64,000 nucleotides of DNA, taken from positions 1 to 64,000 of the forward strand of contig NZ_SJPT01000006.1 of assembly GCF_007860095.1 (NCBI RefSeq), given 5' to 3'. The first letter of the stretch is position 1. Each line of letters begins with the position of its first letter. Below the pieces are notes generated by a model. The model saw only the letters and a list, made by a program, of their open reading frames with translations. It was not told the DNA's origin and ran no database searches. This stretch comes from Novipirellula galeiformis. GTDB lineage: Bacteria; Planctomycetota; Planctomycetia; Pirellulales; Pirellulaceae. Shown here one piece after another: positions 15,022-47,654 of the stretch. The translations under genes were made by a program, and so were the position numbers.

Positions 15022-17076
15022 TCAAATAGTCTCATGGCAATCCTTCTTCAGAACGATAACCGCCCGCGATGGAACTTCATACATTGACTTATCGACGGGC
15101 TTTTGTGAAACAAGTTCGGGCTGGGAAGTGTCGACGGCTATTTCCCAGGTACCGGGGGCTCCTTCTTGGATTCCGAATTCGATGGGTTCGGCTGCGGCGT
15201 TGATCATGACGTAGAGGTCGCCGTCGTTTTGGGAGGATCCGTGAAGGCAGTAGGCGAGTTGCTGGGAGGGGGGCGACATGTCGACGAGGTGGCCGGTGCC
15301 GTACCACTTGATGTCATCTCGCCAGAATCTTGAGCGACTGATCGAAGGGTGTGCTTTGCGGAAGGCGATCATCTGTTTGACGAAGTGAAAGATTTCGCCG
15401 CATTCACTTCGGCGGTTCCAGTCGAGCCAGCTAGTTTCGTTGTCTTGGTTGTACGGGTTGGTGTTGCCGCCCTGGGTTTGCATGAATTCATCGCCCATGC
15501 GGAACATCGGCGTTCCGTTGGAAAGCATCAGCAGGCAGATGAGGTTCTTGATTTGCTGCTTGCGGAGTTGCTGGACTTCGGGTGGGACGCCCTCGTCGCC
15601 TTCCCAGCCACTGTTCCAACGGTATTCTTTGCTGCCATCGGTGTTGTTGTGACCGTTGGCCCAGTTACGTTTTTCGTTGTAGGAAACGAGGTCGTAAAGC
15701 GTCGATCCGTCGTGCGACGTGATGTAGTTGATGCTGAGCGGCGGTTGCAGGGCGTGAAAGCGATCGTCGGGGAATAGATCGGCGCTTCCGTAGAGTCGTG
15801 TCATCAGATCGGCAATCATGCCGGTGTCACCGCGAACGAAACGCTGCAACGTGTCGCGAAAATGTGCGTTCCATTGCATCCAACGTTGCCCGGGGAATTT
15901 TTGTCCGAGTTGGAATTCGCCTCCCGCGTCCCACGGTTCGGCGATGAGGCGATTGTTGGTTAGGTCGGCGTTGGTGCCGATCTCGCTGACGATTGGCGGG
16001 TCGTGGAGGTTGATCGAACCGTCGGAGTTACGGGTAAAGATGGACGCGAGATCGAAACGAAATCCGTCGACGTGCTGCTGTTGGTCCCAAAATCGCAGGC
16101 TGTCAACGATGTGTCGTCGCATCGCTCGATTGGCAGTGTGGAGCGTATTGCCCGTGCCGCTGTAGTTGGCGAATGGCGAGTTGGGATTACCAGTCATCAT
16201 GTAGGCCGAGCTACTGTCGATGCCTTTGAAACTGTAGGTCGGCCCGGTGTGGTCGCCTTCACACGTGTGGTTGTAAACGACGTCCAAGATGACTTCGATT
16301 CCAGCGGTGTGAAGGGCTTGGACCATGGTCCGGAATTCGAGTTGCTGGCTACAGACGTCAGGATTGGTTCCATACGCATGGTGCGGCGAATAGAAATTCA
16401 GCGGCATGTATCCCCAGTAGTTTCCGTCGTCGGGATCAAACTGAAAAATCGGCATCAATTCGACTGCCGTGATCCCAAGATCGACGAGGTACGGAATTTT
16501 GTCGACAACGCCAAGGAACGTGCCGCGATGGGATTCGGGTACTCCGGAGTTCGGGTTGCGTGTAAATCCACGGATATGCAATTCGTAGATAACGAGGTCG
16601 TTGCCGTGACGTGGCTGCCGATCGTCTTGCCAATCGAATCCACACAATTGATTCGGCAACACTCCCAGCGGTGCTTGACCCGCATTCGATCCTGGCCGGC
16701 ACGCTGCTTCGCGACAGAAGCCTTCAGGAAAGTAGACGCTTTGGGCACACGGATCGAGCAGGATTTTCTCGTGGTCGAAGCTGTGCCAATCGTAGCCCGC
16801 CTGCGGCGCTGGCCCGTCGACGCGGTAGGCATAGTAGGCGGCGCCTTTCGCGTTCAGATCACTGACGCGGCAATGCCAAACCGGCCCCGATTTGTTCTTC
16901 AAGTAGTCGAAGTCATACTCAAAAATCGGATGGACGATGTCCTGCTTGGTAAACAAGAGCAACCGGACCGCTTCGGCGTGTTTGGAATAGAGCGAGAAGT
17001 TGAACGCTTGCTCCTCCTCGACCCACGTCGCGCCGAGCGGGTAGGGCGTGCCCTCGATTTGTGACCAGGTTTTCAT
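15022..17076 (-). CDS. glgX: Glycogen debranching enzyme (isoamylase type)
   Basis: Cytoplasmic alpha-1,6-glucosidase removing branches from phosphorylase-trimmed glycogen. The N-terminal CBM48-like domain (residues 1-150) begins TPYPLGATWVEEEQAFNFS. The GH13 barrel shows VILDVVYNHT, GFRFDLAS (nucleophile Asp), LIAEPWDAGG (acid/base Glu) and INYITSHDG (third Asp). The QGGNTNPYNQDNETSWLDW motif is typical of GlgX. Its 684 residues are close to the E. coli enzyme. It is the last gene of a long minus-strand run; ATG follows a GAGAGAG stretch. With the glycogen phosphorylase upstream it forms a glycogen breakdown pair. Confidence 0.95.
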   Translation of the reverse strand: MKTWSQIEGTPYPLGATWVEEEQAFNFSLYSKHAEAVRLLLFTKQDIVHPIFEYDFDYLKNKSGPVWHCRVSDLNAKGAAYYAYRVDGPAPQAGYDWHSFDHEKILLDPCAQSVYFPEGFCREAACRPGSNAGQAPLGVLPNQLCGFDWQDDRQPRHGNDLVIYELHIRGFTRNPNSGVPESHRGTFLGVVDKIPYLVDLGITAVELMPIFQFDPDDGNYWGYMPLNFYSPHHAYGTNPDVCSQQLEFRTMVQALHTAGIEVILDVVYNHTCEGDHTGPTYSFKGIDSSSAYMMTGNPNSPFANYSGTGNTLHTANRAMRRHIVDSLRFWDQQQHVDGFRFDLASIFTRNSDGSINLHDPPIVSEIGTNADLTNNRLIAEPWDAGGEFQLGQKFPGQRWMQWNAHFRDTLQRFVRGDTGMIADLMTRLYGSADLFPDDRFHALQPPLSINYITSHDGSTLYDLVSYNEKRNWANGHNNTDGSKEYRWNSGWEGDEGVPPEVQQLRKQQIKNLICLLMLSNGTPMFRMGDEFMQTQGGNTNPYNQDNETSWLDWNRRSECGEIFHFVKQMIAFRKAHPSISRSRFWRDDIKWYGTGHLVDMSPPSQQLAYCLHGSSQNDGDLYVMINAAAEPIEFGIQEGAPGTWEIAVDTSQPELVSQKPVDKSMYEVPSRAVIVLKKDCHETI

Positions 17077-17089
17077 TTTTGTTCTCTCT

Positions 17090-17105
17090 CGTAGCCTAGG
17101 CTACG
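17090..17105. repeat. Perfect 16-bp palindrome overlapping a stop codon
   Basis: CGTAGCCTAGGCTACG is perfectly self-complementary. It includes the TAG stop codon of the P-type ATPase gene (17101-17103) and lies 14 bases before the glgX start. Its first 13 bases recur at 31584-31596 as the start of a longer hairpin, so it belongs to an interspersed palindrome family. Confidence 0.85.
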
Positions 17106-19536
17106 CGAGTTTGATGCCTTCAAAGACTCGATAGGCGAACAGCTTGATGCGATCGTTCAGCAGGAACCAAGCCAACGCGTACACCCACACCAATCCTGCC
17201 AATTCCCAGCCGATCGGAGCCATGAAGATGCCGTACACGGACAACAACGTCGCGATGACCTGCGTTCCCAGGACTGCGGCGAACAGAACTTTTGCAGGCC
17301 GAATCGACCAAAACGGACCACGCGTTCTCGTCACAAAAACGGTCAGATGACCGGCGACGGAAAGTTTCAAATAGATCAACGATTGAATCGTGTCCCGGTC
17401 GAACTTGTAGACTTGCTCGGCCAGATAGAACAGCAGGAACGAGGCAACGACTCCTGCGACTCCCAATGTGCAGGCGACACCCAACACCATTCGCATGTTC
17501 CATTGCTCGGGCATTTCGGCGTATCGAACACGGTCGTAAGCAATTGTCAAGATCGCACCATCGTTGAGCAACGCGAGCAACACAATCATGACCGCAGTGA
17601 CGGGATAGAAGTTGAACACCAATATCGACAGCGTCATGAAGAACAGCACACGGATCGTTTCGGCGATTCGATAGATGGCGTAGCTGTTCATCCGCTGGAA
17701 AATCTTGCGAGCTTCCTTGATTGCGTCGATCACGACCGAAAGGCCCGGCGAAAGCAGTACGATGTCGGCAGCCGCCCGTGCCGCGTCCGTTGCTCCCGAA
17801 ACTGCGATTCCGCAGTCCGCCTTTTTGAGGGCCGGAGCGTCGTTGACTCCGTCTCCCGTCATGCCGACGATGTGCCCGTGATTTTGCAAAACGCTGACAA
17901 TATGGAACTTGTGCTCGGGATAGACCTGGGCGAATCCATCGGCCGATTCGATCATGGCGTCGACTTGTGTTGATTCTTGATAGCTGGTGTCCTGAAACAC
18001 TTTGGCGTCAACAAATTCGCGTCCCATGTCCAGCTGAGCGGCGATCTCGCGACCGATTGCCAACTGATCGCCGGTCACCATCTTCACGGCACACCCCATC
18101 GCGCGTGCCGTGGCGATCGTCGACTTGGAGTCTTCTCGCGGTGGATCAAACAGCGGCAACACGCCCAGCAAGCGCCAACCGTTGTGTGCATCCCACTGGG
18201 CAACGCCTAACGATCGGAAACCACGGGCTGCGAACTGGTCGACGGCATCGTTGACCGAGCCACGAATCGCTTCGGCATCGGGCAGCAGATCGAGGATAAC
18301 CTGCGGAGCGCCCTTAGAAGTCTTGAATTCGCCACCGTCGCGGGCGTGGACTGTCGCCTCGGTACGCTTGTGCACCGGATCGAACGGTTGGAAGTGAACG
18401 ACTTGATAGGGTGCGGTTGTCGCCGAATCACATTCGGCCAAAATGGCTTGGTCAATCGCGTCTTGGTTCTCGGCACGCGAGGCCAACGCGGCGGCGCGTA
18501 GAATCTCTTCCTGTGTGATCGTTTCCATCAAGAACGGATCACCGAGCTTCAATTTGTTTTGCGTTAGCGTGCCGGTTTTGTCGCTACACAGCACATCCAT
18601 GCCCGCCAGTTCCTCGATCGACGCCAGCCGACTGACGATCGCTTGACCACGTGCCAGCACTCTCGCCCCGACGGCCATCGTCACGGACAACACGGTCGGC
18701 ATCGCAACAGGGATCGCGGCCACGGTCAACACTAATGCGAACTGCAACGTCTCGGCGATCGGATCGCCCCGAAACAGAGCAACCAACAAGATCAAGGCGA
18801 CCAAAACGACCGCGACAATGATGAGGAAGTCGCCGATTTTCAACACGGCCTTTTGAAAGTGGCTTGTCGTGTGAACCGTTTCGACCAAGTGGGCTGTTTG
18901 TCCAAAATAGGTATTGCCACCTGTGCCAAAGACCAACGCGTCGATTTCGCCTTGTTTGATAATCGAACCTGAATAGACGGTCTCGCCCGAGTTGCGAGTC
19001 ACCGGCAACGATTCACCCGTCAACGCCGACTGATCGACTTCGACCGAATCACCGTCGAGCAATTTGGCATCCGCGGGCACGATATCCCCTAAACGGACTC
19101 GGACGACATCGCCAGGCACAAGCTTACGAGCGGGCATCGAAGTCCATTTTCCGTCACGTTTGACACGTGCATTGAGTGCCAGTCGTGATTTGAGTGCCGC
19201 GATCGCGTTGCCCGCTTGAAACTCCTCCCAAAATCCGACAATGGCGTTTACGATCAACAACGTGAGAATGATTGCGAAGTCGGCCCAGTGTTGCACCAAG
19301 GCTGAGAGCACGGCAGCTACTTCGATCATCCAGGGAATCGGCCCCCAGAAATAGCTAAAAAGTTTCAACAGCGGATTAGCGGCCTCTTCTGCCAACTCGT
19401 TCGGCCCGTACTTTGCCAAGCGCGCGGCTGCTTCGACCTGAGTCAGTCCTGCTGGCGTGGTTGCAAGCTGAGTTTCCAGCTCCGCAGCGCTGAGCGTTTG
19501 CAACGGTTTGCTTTTGGATTCGAGCGTGGTGTTCAT
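17101..19536 (-). CDS. P-type cation ATPase, plasma-membrane H+-ATPase (P3A) type
   Basis: An 811-residue ion pump of the plant/fungal proton ATPase branch. Order: cytoplasmic N-terminal cation-ATPase domain with LSAAELETQLATTPAGLTQVEA; two membrane helices; the actuator loop with TGES (DQSALTGESLPVT); two helices; phosphorylation site DKTGTLT; nucleotide domain; hinge TGDGVNDAPALKKADCGIAV; then six C-terminal helices. It lacks N-terminal metal-binding Cys motifs, arguing against a heavy-metal pump. Proton export would fit acid production by the neighbouring fermentative enzymes, but the ion is inferred from family resemblance. It is transcribed with glgX (24-base gap) and follows xfp after a repeat-filled spacer. 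Confidence 0.88.
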   Translation of the reverse strand: MNTTLESKSKPLQTLSAAELETQLATTPAGLTQVEAAARLAKYGPNELAEEAANPLLKLFSYFWGPIPWMIEVAAVLSALVQHWADFAIILTLLIVNAIVGFWEEFQAGNAIAALKSRLALNARVKRDGKWTSMPARKLVPGDVVRVRLGDIVPADAKLLDGDSVEVDQSALTGESLPVTRNSGETVYSGSIIKQGEIDALVFGTGGNTYFGQTAHLVETVHTTSHFQKAVLKIGDFLIIVAVVLVALILLVALFRGDPIAETLQFALVLTVAAIPVAMPTVLSVTMAVGARVLARGQAIVSRLASIEELAGMDVLCSDKTGTLTQNKLKLGDPFLMETITQEEILRAAALASRAENQDAIDQAILAECDSATTAPYQVVHFQPFDPVHKRTEATVHARDGGEFKTSKGAPQVILDLLPDAEAIRGSVNDAVDQFAARGFRSLGVAQWDAHNGWRLLGVLPLFDPPREDSKSTIATARAMGCAVKMVTGDQLAIGREIAAQLDMGREFVDAKVFQDTSYQESTQVDAMIESADGFAQVYPEHKFHIVSVLQNHGHIVGMTGDGVNDAPALKKADCGIAVSGATDAARAAADIVLLSPGLSVVIDAIKEARKIFQRMNSYAIYRIAETIRVLFFMTLSILVFNFYPVTAVMIVLLALLNDGAILTIAYDRVRYAEMPEQWNMRMVLGVACTLGVAGVVASFLLFYLAEQVYKFDRDTIQSLIYLKLSVAGHLTVFVTRTRGPFWSIRPAKVLFAAVLGTQVIATLLSVYGIFMAPIGWELAGLVWVYALAWFLLNDRIKLFAYRVFEGIKLA

Positions 19537-19715: not shown

Positions 19716-22091
19716 TCAATGACTCCATTTCCACTCGCGAATCTCGGGCATGTCGCGACCGTGCTTGCAGATGTACTGCCGGTGCACGATCAGTTTGTCG
19801 GCGAGCTGTCGTTTCAGCGTGGCTTCTGGTTCGCCGGTTTGCGGCAAGCGGTCGATCGTGTCCATGACCAAGTGGAATCGGTCGAGGTCGTTCAGCACGG
19901 TCATGTCGAATGGTGTGGTGATCGTTCCTTCTTCCTTGTAACCGCGAACGTGAAAGTTATCGTGGTTGGTGCGGCGATACGTCAGCCGATGGATCAACCA
20001 CGGATAAGCATGGAAGGCAAAGATGACTGGCTTGTCTTGTGTGAATAGTGCATCGAATGCGTCGTCGCTCAGGCCGTGTGGATGCTCGGTCTGAGGTTGC
20101 AATTTCATCAGGTCGACCACATTGACCACGCGAATCTTTAACTCCGGTAAGTGCTCTCGCATGATCGAAACCGCTGCCAGAGTTTCCAGCGTCGGAACAT
20201 CGCCGCAACAAGCCATCACCACGTCGGGCTCGCCGCCGTCATCGTTACTGGCCCAATCCCAGACTCCGATTCCCTCGGCACAATGTTTCTCCGCCGCTTC
20301 CATCGTCAACCACTGAGGTGCGGGGTGCTTGCCCGCGATCACGACGTTGACGTAGTGTCGACTGCGTAAACAATGGTCCGTGACCGACAGCAAGCAGTTT
20401 GCGTCCGGCGGCAAGTAGACACGCACGACGGACGCTTTCTTGTTGACGACATGGTCGATGAAGCCAGGGTCTTGGTGCGTGAACCCATTGTGGTCTTGTC
20501 GCCAAACGTGCGAGGCGAGCAGATAGTTCAGCGAAGCGATCTTGTGACGCCACGGCAAACCGCTGGTGACCTTGAGCCACTTGGCGTGCTGATTGAACAT
20601 CGAATCGACGATGTGGATGAACGCTTCGTAACAATTGAACAGGCCGTGCCTGCCCGTCAGCAGATAGCCTTCGAGCCATCCTTCGCATTGGTGTTCGCTG
20701 AGCATTTCCATCACGCGGCCTGCTGGCGCGAGCGACTCGTCGTTGGCGACCGTGCGAGCGTCCCATTGGCGGTCAGTGACGTTGAACACGGCTTCCAAAC
20801 CATTGGATGCCGTCTCATCCGGACCAAAAACGCGAAAGTTTTGCTCGTCGCTATTCATTTCAACCACGTCACGAATGAAGCGGCCGAGTTCGTGCGTGTC
20901 ACCGATTCCCTGAACTCCCGGCTGAGGAACATGCACGGCGTAGTCACGGAAGTCCGGTAGCTTCAAATCTTGTAGTAACTTGCCGCCGTTGGCGTGAGGG
21001 TTCGCGCCCATGCGTCGATCTCCCTGCGGGGCCAATTCAGCAAGTTCTGTTTTCAAACGCCCCGAATCATCAAACAATTCTTCCGGCCGATAACTTCGCA
21101 GCCAGTCTTCCAATTGCTGCAAATGCTCGGGGTGAGTCGCGGGATCGGAAAGGGGAACTTGATGTGCATGAAACGTGCCTTCGATCTGCACGCCATCGAC
21201 GACTTTCGGTCCCGTCCAACCTTTTGGCGATTTCAACACGATCATCGGCCAACGCGGACGTGTTAAGTCTCCGTTTTCTCGTGCGTTATGTTGGATACGC
21301 TTGATCTGCTCGATCACCGTGTCCAACGTCGTTGCCATTGCTTCGTGCATTAGCTCCGGATCGTCGCCTTCGACGAAATGCGGCGTCCATCCGTAGCCTC
21401 GAAGTAGTTGATCGAGTTCTTCGTGTTCGATACGGGCCAAAACGGTTGGGTTGGCGATCTTGTAGCCGTTGAGATGCAGGATCGGCAGCACCGCGCCGTC
21501 GCTGGCCGGGTTGAGGAATTTGTTGGAGTGCCATGCCGTCGCCAACGGTCCCGTTTCTGCTTCACCGTCGCCGACAACACAGGCGACAATCAGTTCCGGA
21601 TTGTCGAACACGGCACCGAACGAATGACTAAGCGAATAGCCAAGCTCCCCGCCTTCGTGAATCGAGCCGGGGCACTCGGGTGAAGCGTGGCTGGGGATGC
21701 CACCGGGGAACGAGAACTGGATGAACAGTTTGCGCAGCCCTGCTTCGTCCTGACTAATCTCGGGGTAGATTTCGCTGTACGTGCCTTCCAGGTACGTGTT
21801 GGCAACGACCGATGGCCCGCCGTGGCCTGGGCCGGAGACATAGATCATGTCGAGGTCGAACTTCTTGATGATCCGGTTGAGGTGGGCATAAACAAAATTC
21901 TGTCCCGGCGTGGTTCCCCAGTGGCCGAGCAACATGTGTTTGATGTCAGCGAGTTCAAGCGGTCGCTTCAGCAACGGGTTGTCGTAGAGATAGATCTGTC
22001 CGACCGACAAGTAGTTGGCTGCACGCCAGTAGGCGTCAATGTTGTGAAGCAGCTCAGGGGAAAGCGTGCGTTGATCCTGCATGGTGGTCAT
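19716..22091 (-). CDS. xfp: Xylulose-5-phosphate/fructose-6-phosphate phosphoketolase
   Basis: Thiamine-diphosphate enzyme splitting xylulose-5-P or fructose-6-P to acetyl-phosphate plus a shorter sugar phosphate. N-terminal half: [40 protein letters not shown], and the diphosphate/Mg site [20 protein letters not shown] with [11 protein letters not shown]. Later: [10 protein letters not shown] and [11 protein letters not shown]. Length about 791 residues matches the family. ATG at 22091 is chosen because AAGGAA stands seven bases before it; the longer frame from a TTG at 22148 has no support. No acetate kinase gene is in the window. It lies 106 bases after glgP in the same direction. Confidence 0.95.
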
Positions 22092-22197
22092 GGATAGGTT
22101 CCTTTTTCGGTATTGAACGTCGTCAAAACTTTCCGCGAGGGGGACCAAAATTCTTGACGCATTTTGTTATGGGTTGACCTTGGATCGCCGGAAACAC

Positions 22198-24840
22198 TCA
22201 TCGTTGCCACCGAATCAGGTCGAGTTCCAACGGCACATTGACGCTTTCGTGTTTTGGCACGATTCGCGGCGTGAAGTCTGTGGTTGGGCGCGTTGCCGAT
22301 ACTGCGGCGCGATAGGTCGCCCAGTTTGCATTTGCCCCCTCCGGCATGCTGGTTCGTGTCATTTCTTGTCGAATGGTTGATTCGTCATTGACTGCATCAG
22401 CGAATAGTTCGACTCGAACAAAGCTCGGATCAAGCCCATCCAGATACACGTCGACTTCAAAGTCATGCTCCTCGTCGTTGGATACGGTTCTAAGATCGCC
22501 AAACTTCAACGAAGCCCACTTTTCACGAAGTGAGCGTTCCCAATGGACAATGTTCGTCCCCACGGTGCCGCCGAGCGCCGAACGATTACGATAGGCAGTC
22601 GCCGCAGGCAAATAGTGTTGCTCGGTGTATTCGCGGACCGTGCGAACGGCCGAAAATTGCGGAGTCAGTTGCGACATGCTGGCCCGCATTCGAGACAACC
22701 ACTTAGCGGGAATGCCTTGCTCGTTGCGGTCGTAAAATTCCGGAATGACGTCGTTTTCAAGCACGTTGTAAAGTTGTTCGGCTTCGATGACGTCCCAAGC
22801 TGGGTCATCGCCGTGCTCCTGGCCGTCGCCGATCGCCCAGCCAACTTCCGGCGTATAAGCCTCGGCCCACCACCCGTCCCGTTCCGACAGATTGATCCCG
22901 CCGTTGACCAGCACCTTCATGCCGCTGGTTCCGCTCGCTTCCCAGGGACGGCGAGGTGTGTTAACCCAAACGTCCGAGCCTTGGACGAGATGCTCGGTGA
23001 GCGACATGTCGTAGTCGCTCAAGAAAATCACATGCTGTCGCGCGCCCGGATGTCGAATGAACTCAATCCATTGGCGAATCAGGTCTTGCCCGGCGTTGTC
23101 CGCTGGATGTGCCTTGCCAGCGATAATGAGTTGCACCGGACGCTCGGTGTTGGTCAACAAACGCAGCAACCGCTCCGGATCATGCAAAAGCAAATTCGGC
23201 CGTTTGTAAGTTGCGAATCGACGAGCAAAACCAAGCGTCAATGTGTTCGGATCAAACAGGTGCTTGGCCGCTTCGACTTCCTCCGGCGACGCCCCCGAAC
23301 CCGCCAACTGACGCGACAGACGGTGGCGGGCGTAGTCGACCAGCGCGTGAGTTGAATCCACTCGAAATTGCCACAGTTGCTCATCCGAAACCTGGCAAAT
23401 ATCACACTCCAACGTTTCGCTCGTTCCAAGCCAACGATCCTTGCCACAGGAATGCGTCCACACCTCGTCCGCTGCCGCCGAATCCCAACTCGGCATGTGA
23501 ACGCCGTTGGTCACGTGTCCCACCGGTACATCGTCCTCGGGCCAATTACGAAACAATGGCTCGAAGATTCGGCGGCTTACCTGGCCATGCAACCGACTCA
23601 CACCATTGACACTGCCGCTTCCACGGATCGCCAAGTACGCCATGTTAAACGTCTCCGATGCGTCACCGGGGTTTTGCCGACCGAGTGCTAGCAGGTCTTC
23701 GACTGAAATACCGAGACTCGTTTGCGCATATGGCCCTAGGTACTGCTCGATTAAGTTCGGTGCAAAGCGATCGAAGCCGGCTGCCACGGCGGTGTGCGTC
23801 GTGAACAGATTTCCCGCCCGCGTCACTGCTAATGCCACCTCGAAAGGCTGGCCCGATGTTTCCATAAAGCAGCGGGCGCGTTCCAAAACAGCAAACGCCG
23901 CGTGTCCTTCGTTCAAGTGACACACGTCCGGAGCAATCCCAAGCTCCGTCAGCAACCGCCAGCCACCGATCCCCAAGATCATCTCTTGCTTCAGCCGCAA
24001 CTCGGGTCCGCCACCATACAGCTCGCTCGTGATTCCTCGATGCTCTGGGAAGTTGGCGGCGTCGTTGCTATCGAGCAAGTACAACTTCACACGCCCCACC
24101 TGAACCTGCCAAGCACGCAACCAAACCGAGTAACCCGGCAGTTTGATTCTCAATCGCAACCACTCTCCATCCGCGTCGCGAAGGGGTCGGATCGGCAACT
24201 GACCAGGGTCGTTGTACGGATACAGCGCGTGTTGCTGTCCTTCGTTGTCGATCGCTTGCCGAAAGTAGCCTTGTTGATAGAGTAAGCCGAGTGCAACAAC
24301 CGGCACGCCCAGATCGCTGGCCGCTTTCAACTGATCGCCCGCGACGTTTCCCAGACCTCCGGAATAGATCGGCAATGCGTCACTGAGCATGAACTCCATG
24401 CTGAAGTACGCCACCATTGGTAGTGGATGAGGTATCGAGTCCGTTTTAATTTGTAGTGGACGAGGCAACGAGTCTCGCACCGCAGGACTCGTAGTCGCAT
24501 CCATGACGCCCGTTACGGACTTGTCACCATGGGTTTGCTGAAACCACGCTGGTTGTTCTGCCGCTTGCCGACGAGCCTTCACCAATTCAGCCACTTTGCT
24601 ACGAAACTCGGTATCGTCCAAAACGTGCTCGATGCGCTTCCGCGACACTGTTTGCAGCACCACCCACGGATTGTGAGTGATCTCCCAAAGCTCAGCATCC
24701 AGTCGACGCCAAACCTCGTCGGTCGCGTGATTCCACGACGACCGCAAGTCCAGCGCCAACTCGGCCAGCGAATCAAAGCCGTCGATTTCAACGGGCAGGA
24801 GATCGTAGATCGGGTGCACGTGTCGCGGGTTCGTGGACAT
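22198..24840 (-). CDS. glgP: Alpha-glucan (glycogen/maltodextrin) phosphorylase
   Basis: Pyridoxal-phosphate enzyme releasing glucose-1-phosphate from alpha-glucans. Features: N-terminal DUF3417-like helical segment (residues 10-100), VAYFSMEF, LPIYSGGLGNVAGDQLKAASDLG, CHLNEGHAAFAVLE, VTNGVHMPSW, FARRFATYKR, and the PLP-lysine region EASGTSGMKVLVNGGINLSERDGWW. Residues about 113-141 (MDATTSPAVRDSLPRPLQIK and on) have no family counterpart; they are encoded by a palindromic repeat lying in frame (24420-24502). ATG at 24840 begins two bases after the stop of the SpoIIAA-like gene, so translation is probably coupled. Confidence 0.94.
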   Translation of the reverse strand: MSTNPRHVHPIYDLLPVEIDGFDSLAELALDLRSSWNHATDEVWRRLDAELWEITHNPWVVLQTVSRKRIEHVLDDTEFRSKVAELVKARRQAAEQPAWFQQTHGDKSVTGVMDATTSPAVRDSLPRPLQIKTDSIPHPLPMVAYFSMEFMLSDALPIYSGGLGNVAGDQLKAASDLGVPVVALGLLYQQGYFRQAIDNEGQQHALYPYNDPGQLPIRPLRDADGEWLRLRIKLPGYSVWLRAWQVQVGRVKLYLLDSNDAANFPEHRGITSELYGGGPELRLKQEMILGIGGWRLLTELGIAPDVCHLNEGHAAFAVLERARCFMETSGQPFEVALAVTRAGNLFTTHTAVAAGFDRFAPNLIEQYLGPYAQTSLGISVEDLLALGRQNPGDASETFNMAYLAIRGSGSVNGVSRLHGQVSRRIFEPLFRNWPEDDVPVGHVTNGVHMPSWDSAAADEVWTHSCGKDRWLGTSETLECDICQVSDEQLWQFRVDSTHALVDYARHRLSRQLAGSGASPEEVEAAKHLFDPNTLTLGFARRFATYKRPNLLLHDPERLLRLLTNTERPVQLIIAGKAHPADNAGQDLIRQWIEFIRHPGARQHVIFLSDYDMSLTEHLVQGSDVWVNTPRRPWEASGTSGMKVLVNGGINLSERDGWWAEAYTPEVGWAIGDGQEHGDDPAWDVIEAEQLYNVLENDVIPEFYDRNEQGIPAKWLSRMRASMSQLTPQFSAVRTVREYTEQHYLPAATAYRNRSALGGTVGTNIVHWERSLREKWASLKFGDLRTVSNDEEHDFEVDVYLDGLDPSFVRVELFADAVNDESTIRQEMTRTSMPEGANANWATYRAAVSATRPTTDFTPRIVPKHESVNVPLELDLIRWQR
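24420..24502. repeat. Palindromic repeat carried in-frame inside glgP
   Basis: Two direct copies, GTAGTGGATGAGGTATCGAG at 24420 and GTAGTGGACGAGGCAACGAG at 24453 (each followed by TC), are followed by an inverted copy GGACTCGTAGTCGCATCC at 24485-24502. The second and third copies can pair as an imperfect hairpin. The same sequence occurs outside genes at 19674-19696 and 40952-41008, so it is a mobile-type repeat. It adds about 29 codons to glgP without breaking the frame, just before the conserved VAYFSMEF motif. Confidence 0.8.
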
Positions 24841-24842
24841 AG

Positions 24843-39622: not shown

Positions 39623-40660
39623 TTAACGTTCTTCTCCAACACGAACCACAAGCTTGCCGAAGTTTTTGCCTTCGAGCAGGCCGATGAATGCGTTCGGTGC
39701 ATTGTCAAGGCCATCAACGACGTCTTCGATAAACTTGACTTTGCCTTCAGCGACCCATGGCGTCATTTCTGCGAGAAACTCTCCGTATCGAGAACCGTAG
39801 TCGTCGAAAATGATGAAGCCTTGAGCCTTGATGCGTCGCACCAAGAACGTTTGCATCAACAACGGCAACCGGTCTGGTCCTTCGGGTAATTTGGTGTCGT
39901 TGTAGTGCGCGATCAATCCGCAAACAGGAATCCGAGCCTTGACATTCAAGAGTGGAAGCACTGCGTCGAACACTTTCCCACCGACACTTTCAAAATACAC
40001 GTCGATTCCGTCCGGACACGCGTCTGCGAGTTGTTCGGCAAAATCGGGTGCGTAGTGATCGAGGCACTCGTCAAAGCCAAATGCTTCGATCCCCGCTTTG
40101 CACTTTTGGGGCCCGCCTGCGACTGCGACGACGCGACAGCCTTTGAGCTTGGCTATCTGTCCAACAACGGCGCCGACCGCGCCAGTTGCGGCGGCGACCA
40201 CAACGGTCTCACCGGGTTTGGGCTGACCAATATCAAGCAGCCCCATGTAGGCCGTGAAGCCTGGCATTCCAAGCACGCCGAGCGATCGGGATGGATGCTC
40301 TAGTTCCTGCCCCAGCGGTATCAGCCCTTTTCCATCGGATACTTCGTAATCCTGCCAACCGGTGTAGCCCAACACCCAGTCACCCTCAACAAAGTCGGGG
40401 TGCATTGACTGCTCAACTCGACAGACCGTACCACCAACCATCACCTCGCCAAGCTCAACCGGCGGCGCGTAAGAAGGCGCGTCACTCATACGGCCCCGCA
40501 TGTAGGGATCGAGTGACAGATAGACCGTTCGCAGTAAGACTTGACCTTCGCTCGGTTGCGGCAAATCCGTCGTTTCCAATCGAAAGTTGTCAGGCGTAGG
40601 TGCGCCTTGTGGTCGGGAGTTCAATAAGACACGGCGGTTTATTTCGCGGGATTGCGACAT
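39623..40660 (-). CDS. NADP-dependent MDR oxidoreductase (CurA/leukotriene-B4 reductase type)
   Basis: Zinc-independent medium-chain reductase that reduces activated C=C bonds. Family motifs are LSLDPYMRGRMSDAPSYAPP, GYTGWQDYEV, GMPGFTAYMGLLDIGQPKPG, the nucleotide motif AATGAVGAVVGQIAKLKGCR, YFESVGGKVFDAVLPLLN and the C-terminal GKNFGKLVVRVGEE. ATG at 40660 (MSQSREINRRVLLNSRPQG) fits the family length; the longer frame from 40735 overlaps a small upstream frame and is not favoured. It is the only enzyme gene on this strand between the plus-strand efflux run and the regulator, suggesting separate control. Confidence 0.93.
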   Translation of the reverse strand: MSQSREINRRVLLNSRPQGAPTPDNFRLETTDLPQPSEGQVLLRTVYLSLDPYMRGRMSDAPSYAPPVELGEVMVGGTVCRVEQSMHPDFVEGDWVLGYTGWQDYEVSDGKGLIPLGQELEHPSRSLGVLGMPGFTAYMGLLDIGQPKPGETVVVAAATGAVGAVVGQIAKLKGCRVVAVAGGPQKCKAGIEAFGFDECLDHYAPDFAEQLADACPDGIDVYFESVGGKVFDAVLPLLNVKARIPVCGLIAHYNDTKLPEGPDRLPLLMQTFLVRRIKAQGFIIFDDYGSRYGEFLAEMTPWVAEGKVKFIEDVVDGLDNAPNAFIGLLEGKNFGKLVVRVGEER

Positions 40661-40731
40661 CGTCAAATCTTTCAGTTGTGGTTGCGGTTGTTTAATCGTC
40701 AGCGTGAAAGCAAAGCTTGTGCCGATGGTCG

Positions 40732-40851
40732 TCACTCTGACTCATCAATGGGGTGGATACCGAAGGTCTCGCCGAGGCTCGCGTACAAGGCAGAGACGAC
40801 ATACAGCGTTAAGAATGTCGGGACGATCAAGCCGTAGATCATCAACCACAC
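40732..40851 (-). CDS. Possible small membrane protein (about 39 residues)
   Basis: A short frame with one strong membrane helix (MIYGLIVPTFLTLYVVSALY) followed by an acidic tail (GIHPIDESE). AAGGA stands just upstream, giving GTG (40851), TTG (40845) or ATG (40842) starts with different spacings. It ends 71 bases before the MDR reductase start in the same direction and may be its leader or partner. No family is recognised; the ordered helix-plus-tail composition and ribosome site are the only support. Confidence 0.45.
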   Translation of the reverse strand: MWLMIYGLIVPTFLTLYVVSALYASLGETFGIHPIDESE

Positions 40852-41016: not shown

Positions 41017-42369
41017 TCACCCCTCGATGCCGTGCTTTTCCATCATGCGATAGAGCTTGCGGCGTTCGACGCCGAGCGCTCGTGCGGCTTTCGACTTGTT
41101 GCCGTTTTCTCGCTGTAGAACTTCAGCAATGTGCGCTCGCTCCAGGGCGATCAAGGAACCCACCTTCGGAAATTGCGTAGTAGAGGATTGGCTGACGTGA
41201 TCTTGCGTATTCTCGTGACGAAACTCTTCGGATAGGTCACTGATCGTGATGACTCCGTCGTCAGCAAGAATCTTGGCCCGTTCCAAGGTGTTGATAAGTT
41301 GGCGAATGTTGCCAGGCCATGAATAAGCGACCAATGCTTGCCGAGCATCTGCGTCCATCTCATGGTCGTTGCCCAAAAAGTGACTGACGAGTAGCTCGAT
41401 GTCGCCGTCACGCTCTCGTAGCGGTGGCAAGTCCAAGGCCATCACGTTGATGCGATAATACAAGTCTTCGCGGAAACGGCCTTCGTCGACTTCGATTTTC
41501 ATGTCACGGTTCGTTGCGGCGACGATGCGAACGTCGACCCGGCGTTCTTTATGCGATCCGATGCGCCGGAGTGATCCGTCTTCGAGGACGCGCAGCAACT
41601 TCGGTTGCAACGCGAGTGGCAGTTCACCGATTTCGTCGATGAACAACGTGCTGCCATCGGCGACTTCAAACAGCCCCGGTTTCATCGCCGTTGCGCCAGT
41701 GAACGATCCTTTTTCGTGACCGAATAGTTCACTCTCGACAAGATTCTCGGGCAGAGCGGCGCAGTTGATCGTGACCAGCGGTCGTTCACTGCGTGAGCTA
41801 CCGATGTGAATTGCTTGCGCAACCAGTTCTTTGCCGGTGCCGCTTTCGCCTTCGATCAGGACAGCCTTGTTGGTAGGGGCGACTCGGTCGATCAAACGAC
41901 CTAAGCGTTGCATTGGCTCCGACGTGCCGATGATGGCGGTCGCCGGCTTCTTGGTGCGTGTGATGACTTCGCGTAGTTGAGTGTTCTCCTTCTTCAGTCG
42001 ACGACGTTCAACCGCCGCGATGCAGCGGCGTTCCAAGTCACCCATCGGAAAGGGCTTGGTTTGAAAATCGAACACGCCCAAACGCATCGACTCGACCGCG
42101 TTATTGATCGTGCCTTCGCCGGTCAGCACGATCACTTCTGTGTCGGGATTGGATTCACGCATCCGCTGGACCAGCTCGATCCCGCATAGCCCCGGCATGT
42201 TCCAGTCGAGGATGACGACGTCGAAGTCATGCTTTAAACATTGCCCGATCCCCTCTTGGCCGCTGGTCGTTTGCGAAACCCGGTGCCCCTTCTTCTCAAA
42301 CCAGCGAACACAGCCTTCGCTGAAGTCGACGTCATCATCGACAAAAAGAATCTCGATTGATTCAGGCAT
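41017..42369 (-). CDS. NtrC-family sigma-54-dependent response regulator
   Basis: Transcription activator of 450 residues. Receiver domain (1-120) with acidic pocket DDD at 11-13 and phospho-acceptor Asp55 in [10 protein letters not shown]. The AAA+ domain has Walker A GESGTGKE, the sigma-54 loop in variant form GSFTGA, Walker [12 protein letters not shown] and the R-finger region. A Fis-type helix-turn-helix is at the C-terminus ([20 protein letters not shown]). ATG at 42369 has GGAG ten bases upstream; a longer frame to 42597 would run into the divergent kinase gene. It faces the PAS kinase across a 196-base control region and is the probable activator of the module. Confidence 0.95.
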
Positions 42370-42390
42370 GCTGTTTTGCTCCCCATGCTC

Positions 42391-42454
42391 CAAATTGCCA
42401 ATTGCCCGTATATGCACACACGATTGCGCATATTCGGGCAAATTGCGCCAATTG
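42391..42454. promoter_or_regulatory. Divergent control region with nested repeats
   Basis: Between the regulator and kinase genes, ATTGCCCGTATATGC (42401-42415) and GCATATTCGGGCAAAT (42428-42443) form a near-perfect inverted repeat with a 12-base spacer. Outside it, CAAATTGCCAATTG (42391) and CAAATTGCGCCAATTG (42439) are direct repeats. The arrangement suggests an operator for an activator dimer or hexamer, perhaps autoregulation by the adjacent NtrC-type protein. No GG-N10-GC sigma-54 promoter with a good -12 element was found here. Confidence 0.5.
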
Positions 42455-42565
42455 ACGCGATGGCACTGGATGATTCTGGTAGTTTTGGCGGCGAAAATCG
42501 CCGGGTACGCTGGTTGCTTGACTAGCGAACGCAAAGCGAATGCCACTTCATAAAACGCCAAGCAC

Positions 42566-45500
42566 ATGCCCGTTAAACTCTCTGATCCATCTTTCAACTC
42601 CAGCGACGATGCTGACGAAATGACTGCAAAAGCAAATGCCGACGAAGCGTTTCAACCGTTTGCGGATGCAATGCCGGCGATGATTTGGACCTGCGCGGCG
42701 GACGGGTCGGCAACCTTCTTCAACCAGAAGTGGTGTGAGCTGACAGGGATGTCAATGAAAGACTCGCTGGGCGACGGATGGGCGCAAGTCATCCATCCCG
42801 ACGATCGAGAGCGAGTTTTGGCGACTTGGCAGCACGCAACTCAAACCCCACTCAGCCACGACATCGAATTGCGGTATCGGATGGCGGACGGCTCGTACCG
42901 TTGGCACCTTGTCAGTGCCATTCCAATGCTTCACGCCGATGGAACGGTGAGCCATTGGCAACGCATTTGTACGGATATCGAAGCGCAACGGTCATCGCTG
43001 GAGTCGTCCGAGACATTGATGCAAGCCTTCGTGGATTCAGCAGTTGATGGAATCATCACGATTGACCACCAAGGTAGGATCGAGTCCTGCAACCCGTCAG
43101 GCTGCGTGATGTTCGGATACGATGAGTCCGAGATCATTGGCCAAAACGTCAGTCGTCTGATGCCACCATCGTTCGCGACACGGCATGATGACCACCTTGC
43201 GAGCTATTTGCAAACTGGTGAGAAAAAGATCATCGGGATAGGACGTGAACTGGTTGGCCAACGGAAAGATGGGACGGTTTTCCCCATGAAGATTGCCGTC
43301 AGTGAGGTTCATGTTGGTGGACGAAAACGGTTTGCAGGAATCGTGCATGACCTAACCGAACGAGATCGACTGCAGGATGAGTTGCGTGGTCGTCAACGCG
43401 TGCTAGAGCGTGTGGCGAAAGGTAGGCCGCTGAGCGAAGTGCTTGACACTTTAATCGCATTTGCCGAAGAGTCGCGGCCCGACATGATCGCCTCGACCCT
43501 TGTCTTAGATAAACAAGAGGGATGCTTACGGCATGGTGCGTCACGACAACTTCCTGATTTCTATCTGGAAGTGATTGACGGTGTGGTGCCTGGCCCCAAG
43601 GTCGGCTCATGCGGTACAGCAGCGTTTACCGGCGAACGCGTGGTGGTCGAAGATATCAAGACCGATCCGTTGTGGGAGGACTATCGCGACCTAGCGACCC
43701 GAGCGAATCTGCGGGCTTGTTGGTCGGAACCGATCATCGCTTCGTGCGGACGAGTTGTCGGTACGTTCGCGATGTACTACACCGAACCCCGTTCTCCGGA
43801 TGCCGAAGATTTGCAGTTTGTCGAGAGTTGCGCCAAGGTCGCGGCGATCGCGATCGAGCGAGAGAGAGTGGACAGCCAACTGCGTCAAATGGCGGCAATC
43901 GTCGATTCAACCGATGACGCAATCATCCTAAAAAATCTAAAAGGCGTGATCGAAAAGTGGAACCACGGTGCCGAGCGAGTGTATGGTTACTCGGCCGCCG
44001 AAGCAGTCGGCCAGCCAATCGCAATGCTAGTTCCCGACGATCGAGCCTACGAACTCAAAGCGAATACAGAGACGATTCGACAAGGAGGAAAGGTCGACCA
44101 TTACGAGACGGTGCGTGTCACTAAAGACGGCCGACGCATTCACATTTCCTCGACGCTTTCTCCCGTTCGCGATACGGAGGGACGGCTAACACACTTCGTC
44201 GATGTTCAAAACGACATCACGCAGCGCGTCCAGGTCCAAGACGAAATCGCTCGCGAACGTGCGGTCCTTGACACGATCGTCAGCGGTATTCCTGACGCGT
44301 TGCTGATGGCGGACCTTGATCGCAAACTCACGCACTGCAACCAAGGAGCGTACGAAATGTTTGGCTACGCGCCAACTGAGCTCATTGGCCAGCCAAAAGC
44401 AATCTTGTACGCGAACCCTGACCAACACTCCTTGCAAGGGATGCAACGATTTAATCCGGCTGCTCGTCAGCACACCGAGGTGGTTGAGATCGAATGGCGA
44501 CGAAAAAACGGCGATGTGTTCACGGGTGAAACGGTGGGAACGATCATTCGCGATCGTTCCGGAAAGCCGATCAGTTATCTTGCCCTGATTCGCGACATCA
44601 CAGACCGAAAGCACGCCGAAGCAACGATCCGTGAGAGCAACCGCAAGTTGTCGTTGTTACTGAGTAATCTTCCTGGTGCGGCGTTTCGCATCGCAGGCGA
44701 CGCCGACTTCACCGTTGAGTTCGTCAGCGACGGTTGCTTGGAATTAACGGGATACTCAGCCTCTGAACTCACCACCGGAAGGATGCTCTTATTTCCTGAA
44801 GACTTGGACGAAGTCAGGAAGAAGCTCAATCGCAGCGTTGCCGAACGAGAACCGTTTGATTTTGTGCATCGTGCCCGGCATCGAAATGGAGAAATACGGC
44901 GGATTTGGGCGCGGGGGCAGGGCGTTTTCTCCGACGAGGGAGAGTTGATTGCGATCGAAGCGTTCATCTCCGACTTTACCGAACTACACGATGCGCGTGA
45001 GCAACTCGTGCAATCCGAACGACTCGCGGCAGTAGGTCAAATGATTTCCGCAATCGCGCACGAAAGTCGCAACGCGCTCCAGCGAATCCAAGCCGGCACG
45101 GACATGCTCGGACTCGAGCTTGACGAACACTCCGACGCGCACAACGATCTCCAACGAATCAATCGCGCCAAAGAAGACCTGCTGCATCTGTTCGAAGACC
45201 TGCGAAGTTACGCGGCTCCCATTCAACTTGACGTACGCGCAAAGAACCTTGCCGAGGTCTGGCATCAAGCTTGGGCCAATTTGGAAGTTTCACGAACTGG
45301 CTGCGATGCAGAGCTGTTGGAGAACACCGGCGGTCTTGAGCTAACGTGTATCATCGACGCATTCCGAATCGAACAGGTGTTTCGCAATTTGATGGAGAAC
45401 GCTCTGGCGGCATGCAGTTCGCTGGTTCGGCTCACGGTGTCATGCACCGAATCCGAAATCAATGGTGCACCAGCGGTGTGCGTATCGATCTGCGACAACG

Positions 45501-45691
45501 GGCCAGGATTAACTGATGAACAGAGAGCACGAGTTTTCGAGGCATTCTTCACGACAAAGTCGAAAGGCACTGGCTTAGGCATGGCAATTGCTAAACGTAT
45601 CGTTGAAGCACACCAGGGAACCATCGCGGTCGGAGACGCCAGGGACGGCGGGGCCGAGTTCCTAATAACATTGCCACGGACACTTTCGTGA
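42566..45691 (+). CDS. Multi-PAS/GAF sensor histidine kinase
   Basis: A large 1041-residue cytoplasmic sensor without membrane segments. Domains in order: PAS (about 25-145, WHLVSAIPMLHADGTVSHWQ), PAS (150-275, DGIITIDHQGRIESCN), GAF (about 285-435, CGTAAFTGERVVVEDIKTDP), three more PAS modules (to about 815), then HisKA with phospho-acceptor His832 in AIAHESRNALQR, and HATPase with N, G1 and G2 boxes (NLMENAL, CDNGPGL, GTGLGMAIAKRIV). One PAS module resembles FixL-like sensors, but haem or flavin binding cannot be judged. Its stop overlaps the receiver gene start (GTGA). It likely phosphorylates that receiver and/or the divergent NtrC-type regulator. Confidence 0.94.
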   Translation: MPVKLSDPSFNSSDDADEMTAKANADEAFQPFADAMPAMIWTCAADGSATFFNQKWCELTGMSMKDSLGDGWAQVIHPDDRERVLATWQHATQTPLSHDIELRYRMADGSYRWHLVSAIPMLHADGTVSHWQRICTDIEAQRSSLESSETLMQAFVDSAVDGIITIDHQGRIESCNPSGCVMFGYDESEIIGQNVSRLMPPSFATRHDDHLASYLQTGEKKIIGIGRELVGQRKDGTVFPMKIAVSEVHVGGRKRFAGIVHDLTERDRLQDELRGRQRVLERVAKGRPLSEVLDTLIAFAEESRPDMIASTLVLDKQEGCLRHGASRQLPDFYLEVIDGVVPGPKVGSCGTAAFTGERVVVEDIKTDPLWEDYRDLATRANLRACWSEPIIASCGRVVGTFAMYYTEPRSPDAEDLQFVESCAKVAAIAIERERVDSQLRQMAAIVDSTDDAIILKNLKGVIEKWNHGAERVYGYSAAEAVGQPIAMLVPDDRAYELKANTETIRQGGKVDHYETVRVTKDGRRIHISSTLSPVRDTEGRLTHFVDVQNDITQRVQVQDEIARERAVLDTIVSGIPDALLMADLDRKLTHCNQGAYEMFGYAPTELIGQPKAILYANPDQHSLQGMQRFNPAARQHTEVVEIEWRRKNGDVFTGETVGTIIRDRSGKPISYLALIRDITDRKHAEATIRESNRKLSLLLSNLPGAAFRIAGDADFTVEFVSDGCLELTGYSASELTTGRMLLFPEDLDEVRKKLNRSVAEREPFDFVHRARHRNGEIRRIWARGQGVFSDEGELIAIEAFISDFTELHDAREQLVQSERLAAVGQMISAIAHESRNALQRIQAGTDMLGLELDEHSDAHNDLQRINRAKEDLLHLFEDLRSYAAPIQLDVRAKNLAEVWHQAWANLEVSRTGCDAELLENTGGLELTCIIDAFRIEQVFRNLMENALAACSSLVRLTVSCTESEINGAPAVCVSICDNGPGLTDEQRARVFEAFFTTKSKGTGLGMAIAKRIVEAHQGTIAVGDARDGGAEFLITLPRTLS

Positions 45692-46117: not shown

Positions 46118-46529
46118 GCGTTGAGATCGAAGAATGACGTCGGCTATCAAGAACGCGGATGGCATCCGCTAACGGATCGACGTCTAAATTAGAAGCCGAA
46201 ATGCGGCATAGGAAAGGGTGGATTCACCCTGGGCGGCCACGATGTGGCCAAAACACATTTGTTTTTGCCACATCGGAGGCCAAGACGTGGCAATGTACAT
46301 GAGAACGCGTCTTAGCCTTTGATGTTCTAGCGAACGGTTTCACCGTGGGAAATCGTTGAGACTCGAAACAACATGAATGCAACGGAATCTCTGACACGAG
46401 ACACAAGGCTGATGCTGCTTCGGCCGGATCTGCACCTCGAACGTTTGACGTTGCCGTTTCGTTGGAAGGCTTACCATCGCGGCGGGACGAAAACGATTCG
46501 CCCCCCACAACGCTCGACTGATTCTCGTC

Positions 46530-47456
46530 GGCGGTGCGAAAGCCCGCACCCCAAAACGCTACCGCGCCATCTTGGATAAATTTGTCGCCTAGCGGGCGAG
46601 CATTCATCTCCGAAATTGGCATCGGGTGACCCGGGGGGAACCCTCGAAAACGTTGCCCCGCACCGGGAGGACAACGAAGATGCTCGCAGAACGATTTACG
46701 GCGAACTGAATCTCGTCAAAACGATGTTTCGTTGGCTTTGCTTCAACGGTCACATCGACCGAAAGACACCCAAGCTAAAGCTGGATTCCCGCGAGCCTAC
46801 TGCTACACGACCGAAGAAGTGAACGCGATGCTCATACCGTGCGCTAAATCGAAAGAGCTGACATGGCTTTGGTGCGCCACCATCGCACTGGCGTTCACGG
46901 GCTTGCGGATCAGTGAGTTTGCATCGCGCAATTGGTGAGACATTCGGTTCGACGTGAGGACGCTTACGCGTCGCTGATAAAAGTGGCTTCGTAGAATAAG
47001 GTTCTGATCGTCGTTCGACCAAGAACAGCCGCAGTCGGCACGTTCCGCTTCGGAGAGAACGCCTTGCGATGCTCCAATCCCTTTCAAAGGATCACCAGTA
47101 TGTATTTCTCTGTCCACGAGGTGGGCGTCTGAAACCAGACACGGTGCGGAACATTCTTGTCCGGGAAGTCATCGCGAAGGTTAAGGACAAGTTTCCGAAA
47201 ATGTATCCGGGCGAGCGATGCTTCAAGGATGGTCGACTCCACAATCTGCAACACTATTTTTGCAGCACGTGCGCGAACAACTGGGATTCCGGCGCGGATG
47301 GTCATGTCCTAGCTCGGACATGCCGACACCGAGATGGTCCGTCACTACTACCATCTGAACGACGGAAGGTCACAACAATCAATGGACCAACTCAAACCTC
47401 TCGGCGAAGAGGCCGTTACAAAGAACGACGAAGAGGACCTAGCCGCAACGGCTTAA
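46530..47456 (+). pseudogene. Tyrosine recombinase/phage-type integrase, heavily decayed
   Basis: Fragments in several frames give one integrase in order. These are an N-terminal core-binding part (TPKRYRAILDKFV, then ELNLVKTMFRWLCFNGHIDR), YTTEEVNAML and LAFTGLRISEFAS with Arg I kept, YVFLCPRGGRLKPDTVRNIL, and the box II region LHNLQHYFCSTCANN, where the usual HxxR Arg is Gln. The end, LGHADTEMVRHYYHLNDGRS, keeps the nucleophilic Tyr. Lesions include a TAG in place of the Trp codon before LGHAD (47310), a TGA after RNW (46936) and at least two frame changes. It lies 120 bases from a tRNA-Ser gene, a common integration target. Confidence 0.88.
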
Positions 47457-47523: not shown

Positions 47524-47566
47524 AAAAAACACCCTCGAAAACACGTGGTTTTCGAGGGTGTTTTTA
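47524..47566 (-). terminator. Bidirectional intrinsic terminator after tRNA-Ser
   Basis: An 18-bp perfect stem (47525-47542 with 47548-47565) around ACGTG has A-runs on the left arm and T-runs on the right. Read on the minus strand it follows the tRNA 3' end by about eight bases and ends in six T. Read on the plus strand it ends in five T. Confidence 0.9.
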
Positions 47567-47572
47567 GCAAAG

Positions 47573-47654
47573 CGGAGGACACGGGACTCGAACCCGCAAT
47601 CCATTTCTGGACAACTGATTTCGAATCAGCCTGCTAGCCATTCGCTTATCCTCC
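47573..47654 (-). tRNA. tRNA-Ser(CGA)
   Basis: On the minus strand, acceptor GGAGGAT pairs with GTCCTCC. The anticodon stem GCTGA/TCAGT encloses loop TTCGAAA, giving anticodon CGA. A long class II variable arm (TGTCCAGAAATGGA) and T-arm GCGGGTTCGAGTCCCGT complete the cloverleaf. The CCA end is not encoded. The integrase remnant lies on its 3' side. Confidence 0.93.

Follow-up and report, generated by a model that had tools for sequence, protein, structure and literature searches.

A probable horizontally exchanged island in Novipirellula galeiformis joins a predicted low-oxygen switch to glycogen and phosphoketolase fermentation genes

NmpRSTU of Myxococcus xanthus controls a hypoxia-linked regulon through the heme-dependent kinase NmpU, sigma-54 and the site GCGCA-N5-TGCGC, as set out in the excerpts of its description used here (PMC11841059). 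We compare it with a block of about 31 kb, extending from GlgX (15022) to a receiver (46053), in a 64,000-nt stretch of Novipirellula galeiformis DNA (contig NZ_SJPT01000006.1, positions 1-64,000; hereafter, the window). The block unites a fermentation module, an exporter and a kinase/NtrC/receiver set. We consider it probably a horizontally traded island with its own switch, found so far in the family of its host and predicted to be regulated by low oxygen. Planctomycetes are mostly regarded as aerobes, and little is known of how they survive low oxygen; the island offers defined promoters, a binding motif and a candidate sensor with which to approach it. A precedent for the sensor is the rhizobial FixL/FixJ pair, in which a proximal His and a pocket Arg serve the heme PAS of FixL and the output is FixJ-type. 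Among the matches listed in the literature on planctomycete phosphoketolase, sigma-54, FixL/NtrC and low-oxygen loci, we found no description of such an island; the excerpts of a study on sigma-54 targets in Planctomycetia concern other genes, with neither phosphoketolase nor FixL in that text (PMC12316311).

Results

Switch and cargo recur together in five genera

The switch comprises an NtrC-type sigma-54 activator with a receiver, an AAA+ domain bearing GSFTGA and a Fis-type helix-turn-helix (41017..42597, minus strand, start probably 42369), a multi-PAS/GAF histidine kinase (HK; 42566..45691, plus strand) and a single-domain receiver (REC; PF00072; 45688..46053, plus strand). RpoN is present in 11 of 11 genomes searched, the host genome among them. 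The metabolic cargo lies on the minus strand and is transcribed in the order zinc alcohol dehydrogenase (ADH; ADH_N/ADH_zinc_N; 26033..27229, start probably 27100), phosphoglycerate mutase GpmA (NF010713, 342 bits; 25207..26040), a SpoIIAA-like protein (PF11964; 24843..25202) heading the run that follows, alpha-glucan phosphorylase GlgP with DUF3417 (TIGR02094, 796 bits; 22198..24858, start probably 24840), phosphoketolase Xfp (XFP_N/XFP/XFP_C; 19716..22148, start probably 22091), a P3A-type H+-ATPase (PMA1; TIGR01647, 1058 bits; 17101..19536) and finally a GlgX-type glycogen debranching enzyme (Alpha-amylase and CBM_48; 15022..17076), which scores 564 bits with TIGR02100, under the model's cut-off of 640.9. 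Pfam and NCBIfam matches bear out a first-pass annotation made from the letters, which had read these genes as one minus-strand run while leaving the SpoIIAA-like gene unnamed, and domain searches confirmed its kinase/NtrC/receiver set. Its 'secondary-type' label for the ADH held for the family, which is certainly zinc ADH, and failed for the subtype, with none of 21 listed NCBIfam models above its own cut-off.

Searching 199 family genomes for the activator returned 22 loci at 69-100% identity, the host's own two included, plus one partial match at 80%; the remaining matches among those listed had at most 60% identity. At 8 of these 23 loci, spanning five genera, block genes (Xfp, GlgP, GlgX, PMA1, SpoIIAA, ADH or exporter) lay nearby at 60% identity or more. 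Besides the window, these were G037, G087, G186, G198, G162, G185 and G173, from four other genera, with GlgP as the sole module gene in G162. Linked loci were recognised in 40-kb stretches and extended to 60-80 kb only afterwards. In G198, 16 window proteins recurred at 60% or more within 60 kb, along with HK at 58% and REC at 57%. The G037 set is split, with NtrC and the exporter on C9 and HK-REC, GlgX, PMA1 and SpoIIAA on C2. Twelve control stretches (246,670 bases) contained no module gene at the same threshold. On the NtrC tree, the linkage label (nine rows, G150 counted) required two changes, compared with a shuffled mean of 7.7, and 0 of 500 shuffles were as low; without G150, the eight linked activators formed one group with support of 90/88, slightly below the tool's mark. 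Separately, a betaproteobacterial metagenome-assembled genome (L145) carries Xfp beside a HlyD-ABC-permease exporter, a kinase and NtrC homologues, possibly an independent assembly.

Five promoters of the block share a predicted sigma-54 site and a palindrome

We scored promoters with a sigma-54 matrix, counting the best site of at least 9.5 bits within 250 bp and leaving out loci with unaligned gene starts; 4.7% of random stretches reach 10 bits with this matrix. Predicted sites lay 38-113 bp upstream of SpoIIAA (6/7 loci), ADH (5/5), the unknown protein hyp28219 (4/4), HK (4/4) and a CurA-type reductase (1/1), and 103-227 bp upstream of HlyD, the first exporter gene, at three of four loci. 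Where none of these genes stands in front, Xfp (G185, G173) or GlgP (G162) has a site of its own, the overall counts being 2/8 for Xfp and 1/6 for GlgP. Inside runs, none was found for acetate kinase (AckA, 0/4), GpmA (0/4), histidine phosphatase (0/7), the ABC ATPase (0/3), the two permeases (0/4 each) or PMA1 (0/2), and MarC and RIC, likewise within runs, had none at 9.5 bits. Nor did a site of that strength precede MgtC, FtsH, PhoU, CorA, FBA, acetolactate decarboxylase (ALDC) or hyp27630.

Searching for palindromes in the sequence ahead of 27 chosen sites yielded TGCGCacATgtGCGCA, with a log-likelihood of 109 versus 24-30 in five shuffles. We then trained the model anew on 16 promoters taken from seven genomes other than the host's, and it reached 64 versus 22-30 in ten shuffles. 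Five window promoters combine a sigma-54 site with an upstream 16-bp palindrome, TGCSCAnATnTGSGCA: those of SpoIIAA-GlgP-Xfp-PMA1-GlgX, ADH-GpmA, the HlyD exporter, CurA and HK-REC. Palindromes of at least 12 bits occur six times in the block (25337, 31538, 31555, 40929, 42403 and 42425), each preceding a sigma-54 site, once elsewhere in the window (58568) and eight times across 400 kb of the host genome, in which none reaches 15 bits. Pairs, defined as a palindrome of 10 bits and a sigma-54 site of 9.5 bits 20-230 bp apart, number seven in the block at the five promoters, zero in the remaining window and one, weak, in the 400 kb.

The predicted SpoIIAA site, TGGCATCGCATCTGCG (25259..25274, minus strand; 9.6 bits), lies 56 bp before the gene and at a gap of 62 from a palindrome (25337..25352) scoring 18.0 bits with the out-of-genome model; its orthologues score 12.6-16.0 bits at five of six other loci and 6.3 at the sixth. 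For ADH-GpmA, a site at 27155..27170 (minus strand; 10.3 bits) accompanies a palindrome at 27215-27230 (10.0 bits; gap 44). Two adjacent palindromes before HlyD (31538..31570; starts 17 bp apart; 15.5 and 12.1 bits) stand at gaps of 91 and 74 from the site of the HlyD-ABC-permease run (31645..31660, plus strand; 12.8 bits). The CurA site (40709-40724, minus strand; 15.0 bits) has its palindrome at 40929-40944 (13.9 bits; gap 204). Between NtrC and HK, two palindromes of 18.5 bits each (42403..42440; starts 22 bp apart) adjoin divergent sigma-54-like sites at 42503-42518 (plus strand, HK; 12.2 bits) and 42530-42545 (minus strand, NtrC side; 11.2 bits). The commonest palindrome-to-site spacing is 84-88 bp. 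Ahead of hyp28219, the window site (28684-28699) scores 12.5 bits and orthologous sites, present at all four loci, up to 18.6.

The motif extends beyond the island. Palindromes of 15 bits lie near 9 of the 14 NtrC-subfamily sets that lack the module, and near G150; the unlinked sets devoid of one are G140 and G149, with a normal helix, and G006b, G072b and G103b, with a deviating helix. Activators with the same DNA-binding helix appear mostly to keep the same palindrome, even beside other reductases. The host's second NtrC/HK/REC set (C4:699-703 kb; L063) has two strong sigma-54 and palindrome promoters before neighbouring reductase genes. In all, three pairs there precede SDR and zinc-type reductase genes, which were absent from the training set.

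Several candidate signals were set aside. Sigma-54-like matches before REC (7/9 loci at 9.5 bits or more) fall in a GMAIA-coding stretch of the kinase and were rejected. Helical phasing is insecure and was not counted as evidence, as p<0.001 over all pairs became p=0.04-0.15 once collapsed by genus and spacing. A plain sigma-54 consensus search gave 6 matches against 2.2 expected, too weak by itself, and an exact-dyad count gave nothing clear. Whole-region sigma-54 counts at 9.5 bits were, for most regions, near those of the reversed control (window, 28 versus 31), and the promoter case therefore rests on position and palindrome pairing.

A FixL-type PAS suggests low oxygen as the signal

Residues 139-273 (approximate domain limits) of the window kinase matched FixL 1d06 with E=3.3e-28, and further FixL chains and DosP ranked next. 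The window kinase shares the aligned His (207) and Arg with those of G186 and G198 and of three unlinked sets. Given this FixL-type heme PAS, low oxygen is the likely signal; oxygen sensing is likely for the window kinase and is not universal among island kinases. With the recurrence of NtrC/HK/REC in five genera and the five promoters sharing a site and palindrome, these features lend good support, at the level of sequence, to the first-pass grouping of the genes as one regulated system.

Part of the evidence weighs against an oxygen-responsive unit. Of seven island kinases compared, four (G087, G037, G185 and G173) lack the FixL-type PAS, and a search of the G162 kinase for it gave no match. 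A kinase adjoining a control NtrC from the same genome also has this PAS, which is therefore not peculiar to the island. (The G198 stretch holds a further FixL-type PAS kinase at another place.) The same switch and targets could instead form a stress regulon not tied to oxygen, in which redox or energy stress or electrophiles give the signal and the heme PAS is an add-on of some kinases. Its absence from those four kinases favours that reading, as do the strong sites of the C4 set, which precede SDR and zinc-type reductase genes rather than fermentation genes, and the CurA reductase among the window targets. Retention of the aligned His and Arg in the window, G186 and G198 kinases argues the other way, and the targets would fit hypoxia; we regard an oxygen-independent regulon as rather unlikely.

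Other points tell against a single switched unit of any kind. Fourteen of the 23 NtrC-subfamily loci had no module gene nearby, in stretches mostly of about 40 kb (12-30 kb for G114, G075, G011 and C4, four of the 14), and G150 had lactate dehydrogenase (LDH) and CurA only. The window GlgX has a sigma-54 site (1/5 loci) although it lies within a run, and possible unit leaders mostly lack one (TolC 1/4, hyp28760 2/5, NtrC 3/9). The window sites of SpoIIAA and ADH are weaker than nearly all of their orthologues, and the out-of-genome model pairs no palindrome with the hyp28219 site there. Thresholds were picked after looking, and the training set holds orthologues of the window promoters, those of CurA and C4 excepted. 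Linked loci G185 and G173 lack a 15-bit palindrome, whereas G055 and G036 retain sites without this NtrC subfamily. The 246,670 distinct control bases contain two palindromes of 15 bits, each immediately ahead of a paralogous NtrC gene. Together with the palindromes near NtrC-subfamily sets, this links the motif with activators of this kind. The control palindromes, at L224:18967 and L226:1313, score 15.5 and 16.1 bits, and the genes behind them have 56-58% identity. In G173 (L207/L208), the longest NtrC reading frame recovered lacks the DNA-binding end, and the locus has no 15-bit palindrome.

The block also lacks AckA. Xfp is intact in it, but AckA is encoded outside, at two places in the genome, as is phosphotransacetylase, at one. 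In the G055 cluster, an acetate kinase gene stands between Xfp and GlgP; the block has no such gene. A second GlgX/GlgP/Xfp copy in the host genome, interrupted by stops and frameshifts (C3:700-707 kb; L058:9951-16778), sits behind a thioredoxin gene whose sigma-54 site is strong (15.7 bits) and whose palindrome scores 11.4 bits.

The block was probably gained without the tRNA-Ser integrase

Among 80 family genomes, Xfp occurs in 11 (the host included) and the right-flank gene NfeD in 78. Congener G013 has no Xfp, and the Xfp copies of congener G077 are only 69 and 53% identical; we found neither the NtrC subfamily nor the block in either. Xfp from the other-genus genomes G036, G055 and G019 shows 85-90% identity. 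In G055, genes from PMA1 to hyp28760 follow the same order at 77-93%, with phosphatase, AckA and ALDC interspersed. Named genomes hold at least 590 Xfp relatives, and the best 80 of these (68-84%) come from Gammaproteobacteria, Acidobacteria, Cyanobacteria, Verrucomicrobia and others; nearby genes at those 80 loci, on contigs that are sometimes short, include AckA in 41, P-type ATPases in 20 (many distant), GlgP in 12 and histidine phosphatase in 10. Because Xfp is patchy in the family yet highly similar across genera and phyla, we infer that the metabolic core is widely transferred. NfeD and Xfp identities differ sharply in G036 (49 versus 90%), G055 (62 versus 87%) and G019 (35 versus 85%). 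This contrast plays a supporting part only, since Xfp evolves slowly (identities as high as 84% across phyla) and a LolC-like permease reaches 70, 78 and 55% in the same genomes. Directly beside the G036 Xfp cluster lie genes for a serine recombinase and an rve-type transposase (L045:988-4398).

Composition was rejected as island evidence: GC is 0.549 in the block, 0.584 to its left, 0.576 to its right and 0.555-0.574 in six other stretches of the genome, a slight dip only. The foreign origin proposed at first pass is supported in part, by patchy Xfp and by an NtrC subfamily found in neither congener, and not by the GC profile that was to test it. With the block not found in those congeners and Xfp patchy, horizontal gain by a route other than the tRNA is likely, most likely homologous exchange or some other element.

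The first-pass annotation had suggested insertion of the whole block by an integrase, since decayed, at the adjacent tRNA-Ser(cga) (47572..47654, minus strand; ARAGORN). The decayed tyrosine recombinase itself is real: a remnant at 46403..47453 (plus strand), identified by tblastn of intact G077 genes, adjoins the tRNA 3' end, and the intact G077 integrase aligns piecewise over 46467-47453, with a weaker piece of a 391-aa gene (26 residues, E=5e-4). Absence of the block at this tRNA from G013, G037 and the visible part of G077 also accords with insertion. However, the same tRNA-Ser in G077 and G037 is accompanied by an intact integrase of this type and by the 391-aa gene, without the block there. 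The remnant is thus most likely a separate small element. In G037 the block modules are on C2 and C9 and the tRNA on C5. The G077 contig stops about 1.5 kb past the element, and the divergent Xfp copies of that genome are on other contigs. The 391-aa proteins at L062:8989-10164 and L184:5657-6832 are alike in two genera, and the L062 protein has no Pfam match.

Other expected traces of insertion also failed to appear. A second copy of the attachment site, sought as a match to the tRNA end, was found nowhere in the window, where the contig begins 15 kb left of the block and limits the leftward search; the only other match in the genome was another tRNA-Ser-like place. No tRNA occurs in the stretches examined around the G055 and G037 modules, and GC stays near that of the genome. 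The tRNA-Ser and its right-hand neighbours are conserved in G013 and G077 (two genes in G037), and G013 has neither integrase nor block at this tRNA-Ser. Comparing gene order there gave no clean empty site, as the G013 left flank is rearranged, with the genes left of its tRNA about 230 kb away in the host genome. The left-flank gene at 7611-10949, one of a large family of paralogues, cannot serve as an anchor. Taken together, we judge site-specific integration at tRNA-Ser improbable.

That the modules are merely chance neighbours, each separately regulated, is more improbable still: they are separate in G055, G036 and G019, and Xfp across phyla is mostly with AckA rather than this set (best 80 of at least 590), but the linkage recurs in five genera and the units have a promoter code in common.

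Exporter, repair and decayed genes

The plus-strand cargo begins with hyp28760, a conserved protein of unknown function without a Pfam match (28760..29380; 91% in G055), and an LDH C-terminal remnant (29376..29660; Ldh_1_C, E=3.2e-6), as the first-pass annotation had read it. A TolC-type outer-membrane protein (29838..31490; PF02321), HlyD with a double ABC ATPase and two ABC-2 permeases (31765..37226; Pfam/NCBIfam), a MarC-family membrane protein (37281..38042; PF01914) and a RIC-type di-iron protein (38045..38788; ScdA_N and Hemerythrin) follow. Domain matches agree with the exporter, TolC, MarC and RIC calls made earlier, RIC scoring 152 bits with TIGR03652, under the cut-off of 204.7. Next come a frameshifted ACT-domain protein (38876..39503, plus strand; ACT_3 and ACT_7 in two frames) and, on the minus strand, the CurA-type NADPH reductase (39623..40735, start probably 40660; NF058644, 592 bits). 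Also on the minus strand are hyp28219 (28219..28749, start probably 28632) and a decayed ALDC remnant (28033..28241), detected in two frames by tblastn of the G055 gene (PF03306). The LDH and ALDC ends, the frameshifted ACT protein and the missing acetate kinase are signs of decay in the block. An Rfam search gave no match.

Discussion

We propose that a fall in oxygen, or in redox state, would change the state of the kinase, and that the activator would then be phosphorylated directly or via the receiver, which may serve as a phosphate sink or relay. Phosphorylated NtrC would assemble on the palindromes and open the sigma-54 promoters, that of its own set included. GlgX and GlgP would degrade glycogen, Xfp would split sugar phosphates to acetyl phosphate, ADH would re-oxidise NAD(P)H and the P-type pump would keep the proton gradient, with RIC, the HlyD exporter and CurA repairing or exporting damage products. 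This set of products is consistent with respiration-free ATP production from glycogen.

The block looks like regulator, binding sites and metabolic cargo moving as one. We suggest tentatively that it may be a self-switching, portable hypoxia-survival island, whose activator binding sites travel with the cargo and arrive pre-wired to low oxygen. If so, fermentation, proton pump, exporter and repair genes would reach a new host already under low-oxygen control. Scanning these genomes with the palindrome could also point to further targets.

Each known system resembles part of the block. Its kinase has a heme PAS like that of rhizobial FixL (E=3.3e-28 against FixL 1d06), but the output protein next to it is of the NtrC sigma-54 activator type, whereas FixL/FixJ has a FixJ-type one. 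Compared with Xfp-AckA clusters, it lacks AckA, and its Xfp is linked to the sigma-54 set instead. HlyD, the fused double ATPase and the two ABC-2 permeases recall what we take to be YbhGFSR-type exporters; here the exporter differs in having its own predicted sigma-54 promoter, plus TolC and MarC.

The nearest working analogue that we found is NmpRSTU, as far as the excerpts of its description go (PMC11841059). Likenesses are an NtrC-like sigma-54 activator, a heme-dependent kinase, autoregulation and paired sites, all predicted from sequence in the block, and hypoxia-linked targets with a stress protein, a hemerythrin and a P-type ATPase. Differences lie in the kinases, a protoglobin kinase (NmpU) and a receiver-first hybrid kinase (NmpS) in M. 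xanthus versus one multi-PAS/GAF kinase and a single receiver here, and in the targets, cbb3 oxidase and HemN versus glycogen-phosphoketolase fermentation. Unlike in NmpRSTU, the regulator of the block adjoins its cargo in several genera (PMC11841059). The sites are GCGCA-N5-TGCGC in NmpRSTU and GCGCA-N4-TGCGC-like in the block, with spacers of 5 and 4 (PMC11841059). Despite matching half-sites, a spacer one base shorter and different kinases lead us not to file the block as Nmp; by analogy, it would nevertheless work like Nmp.

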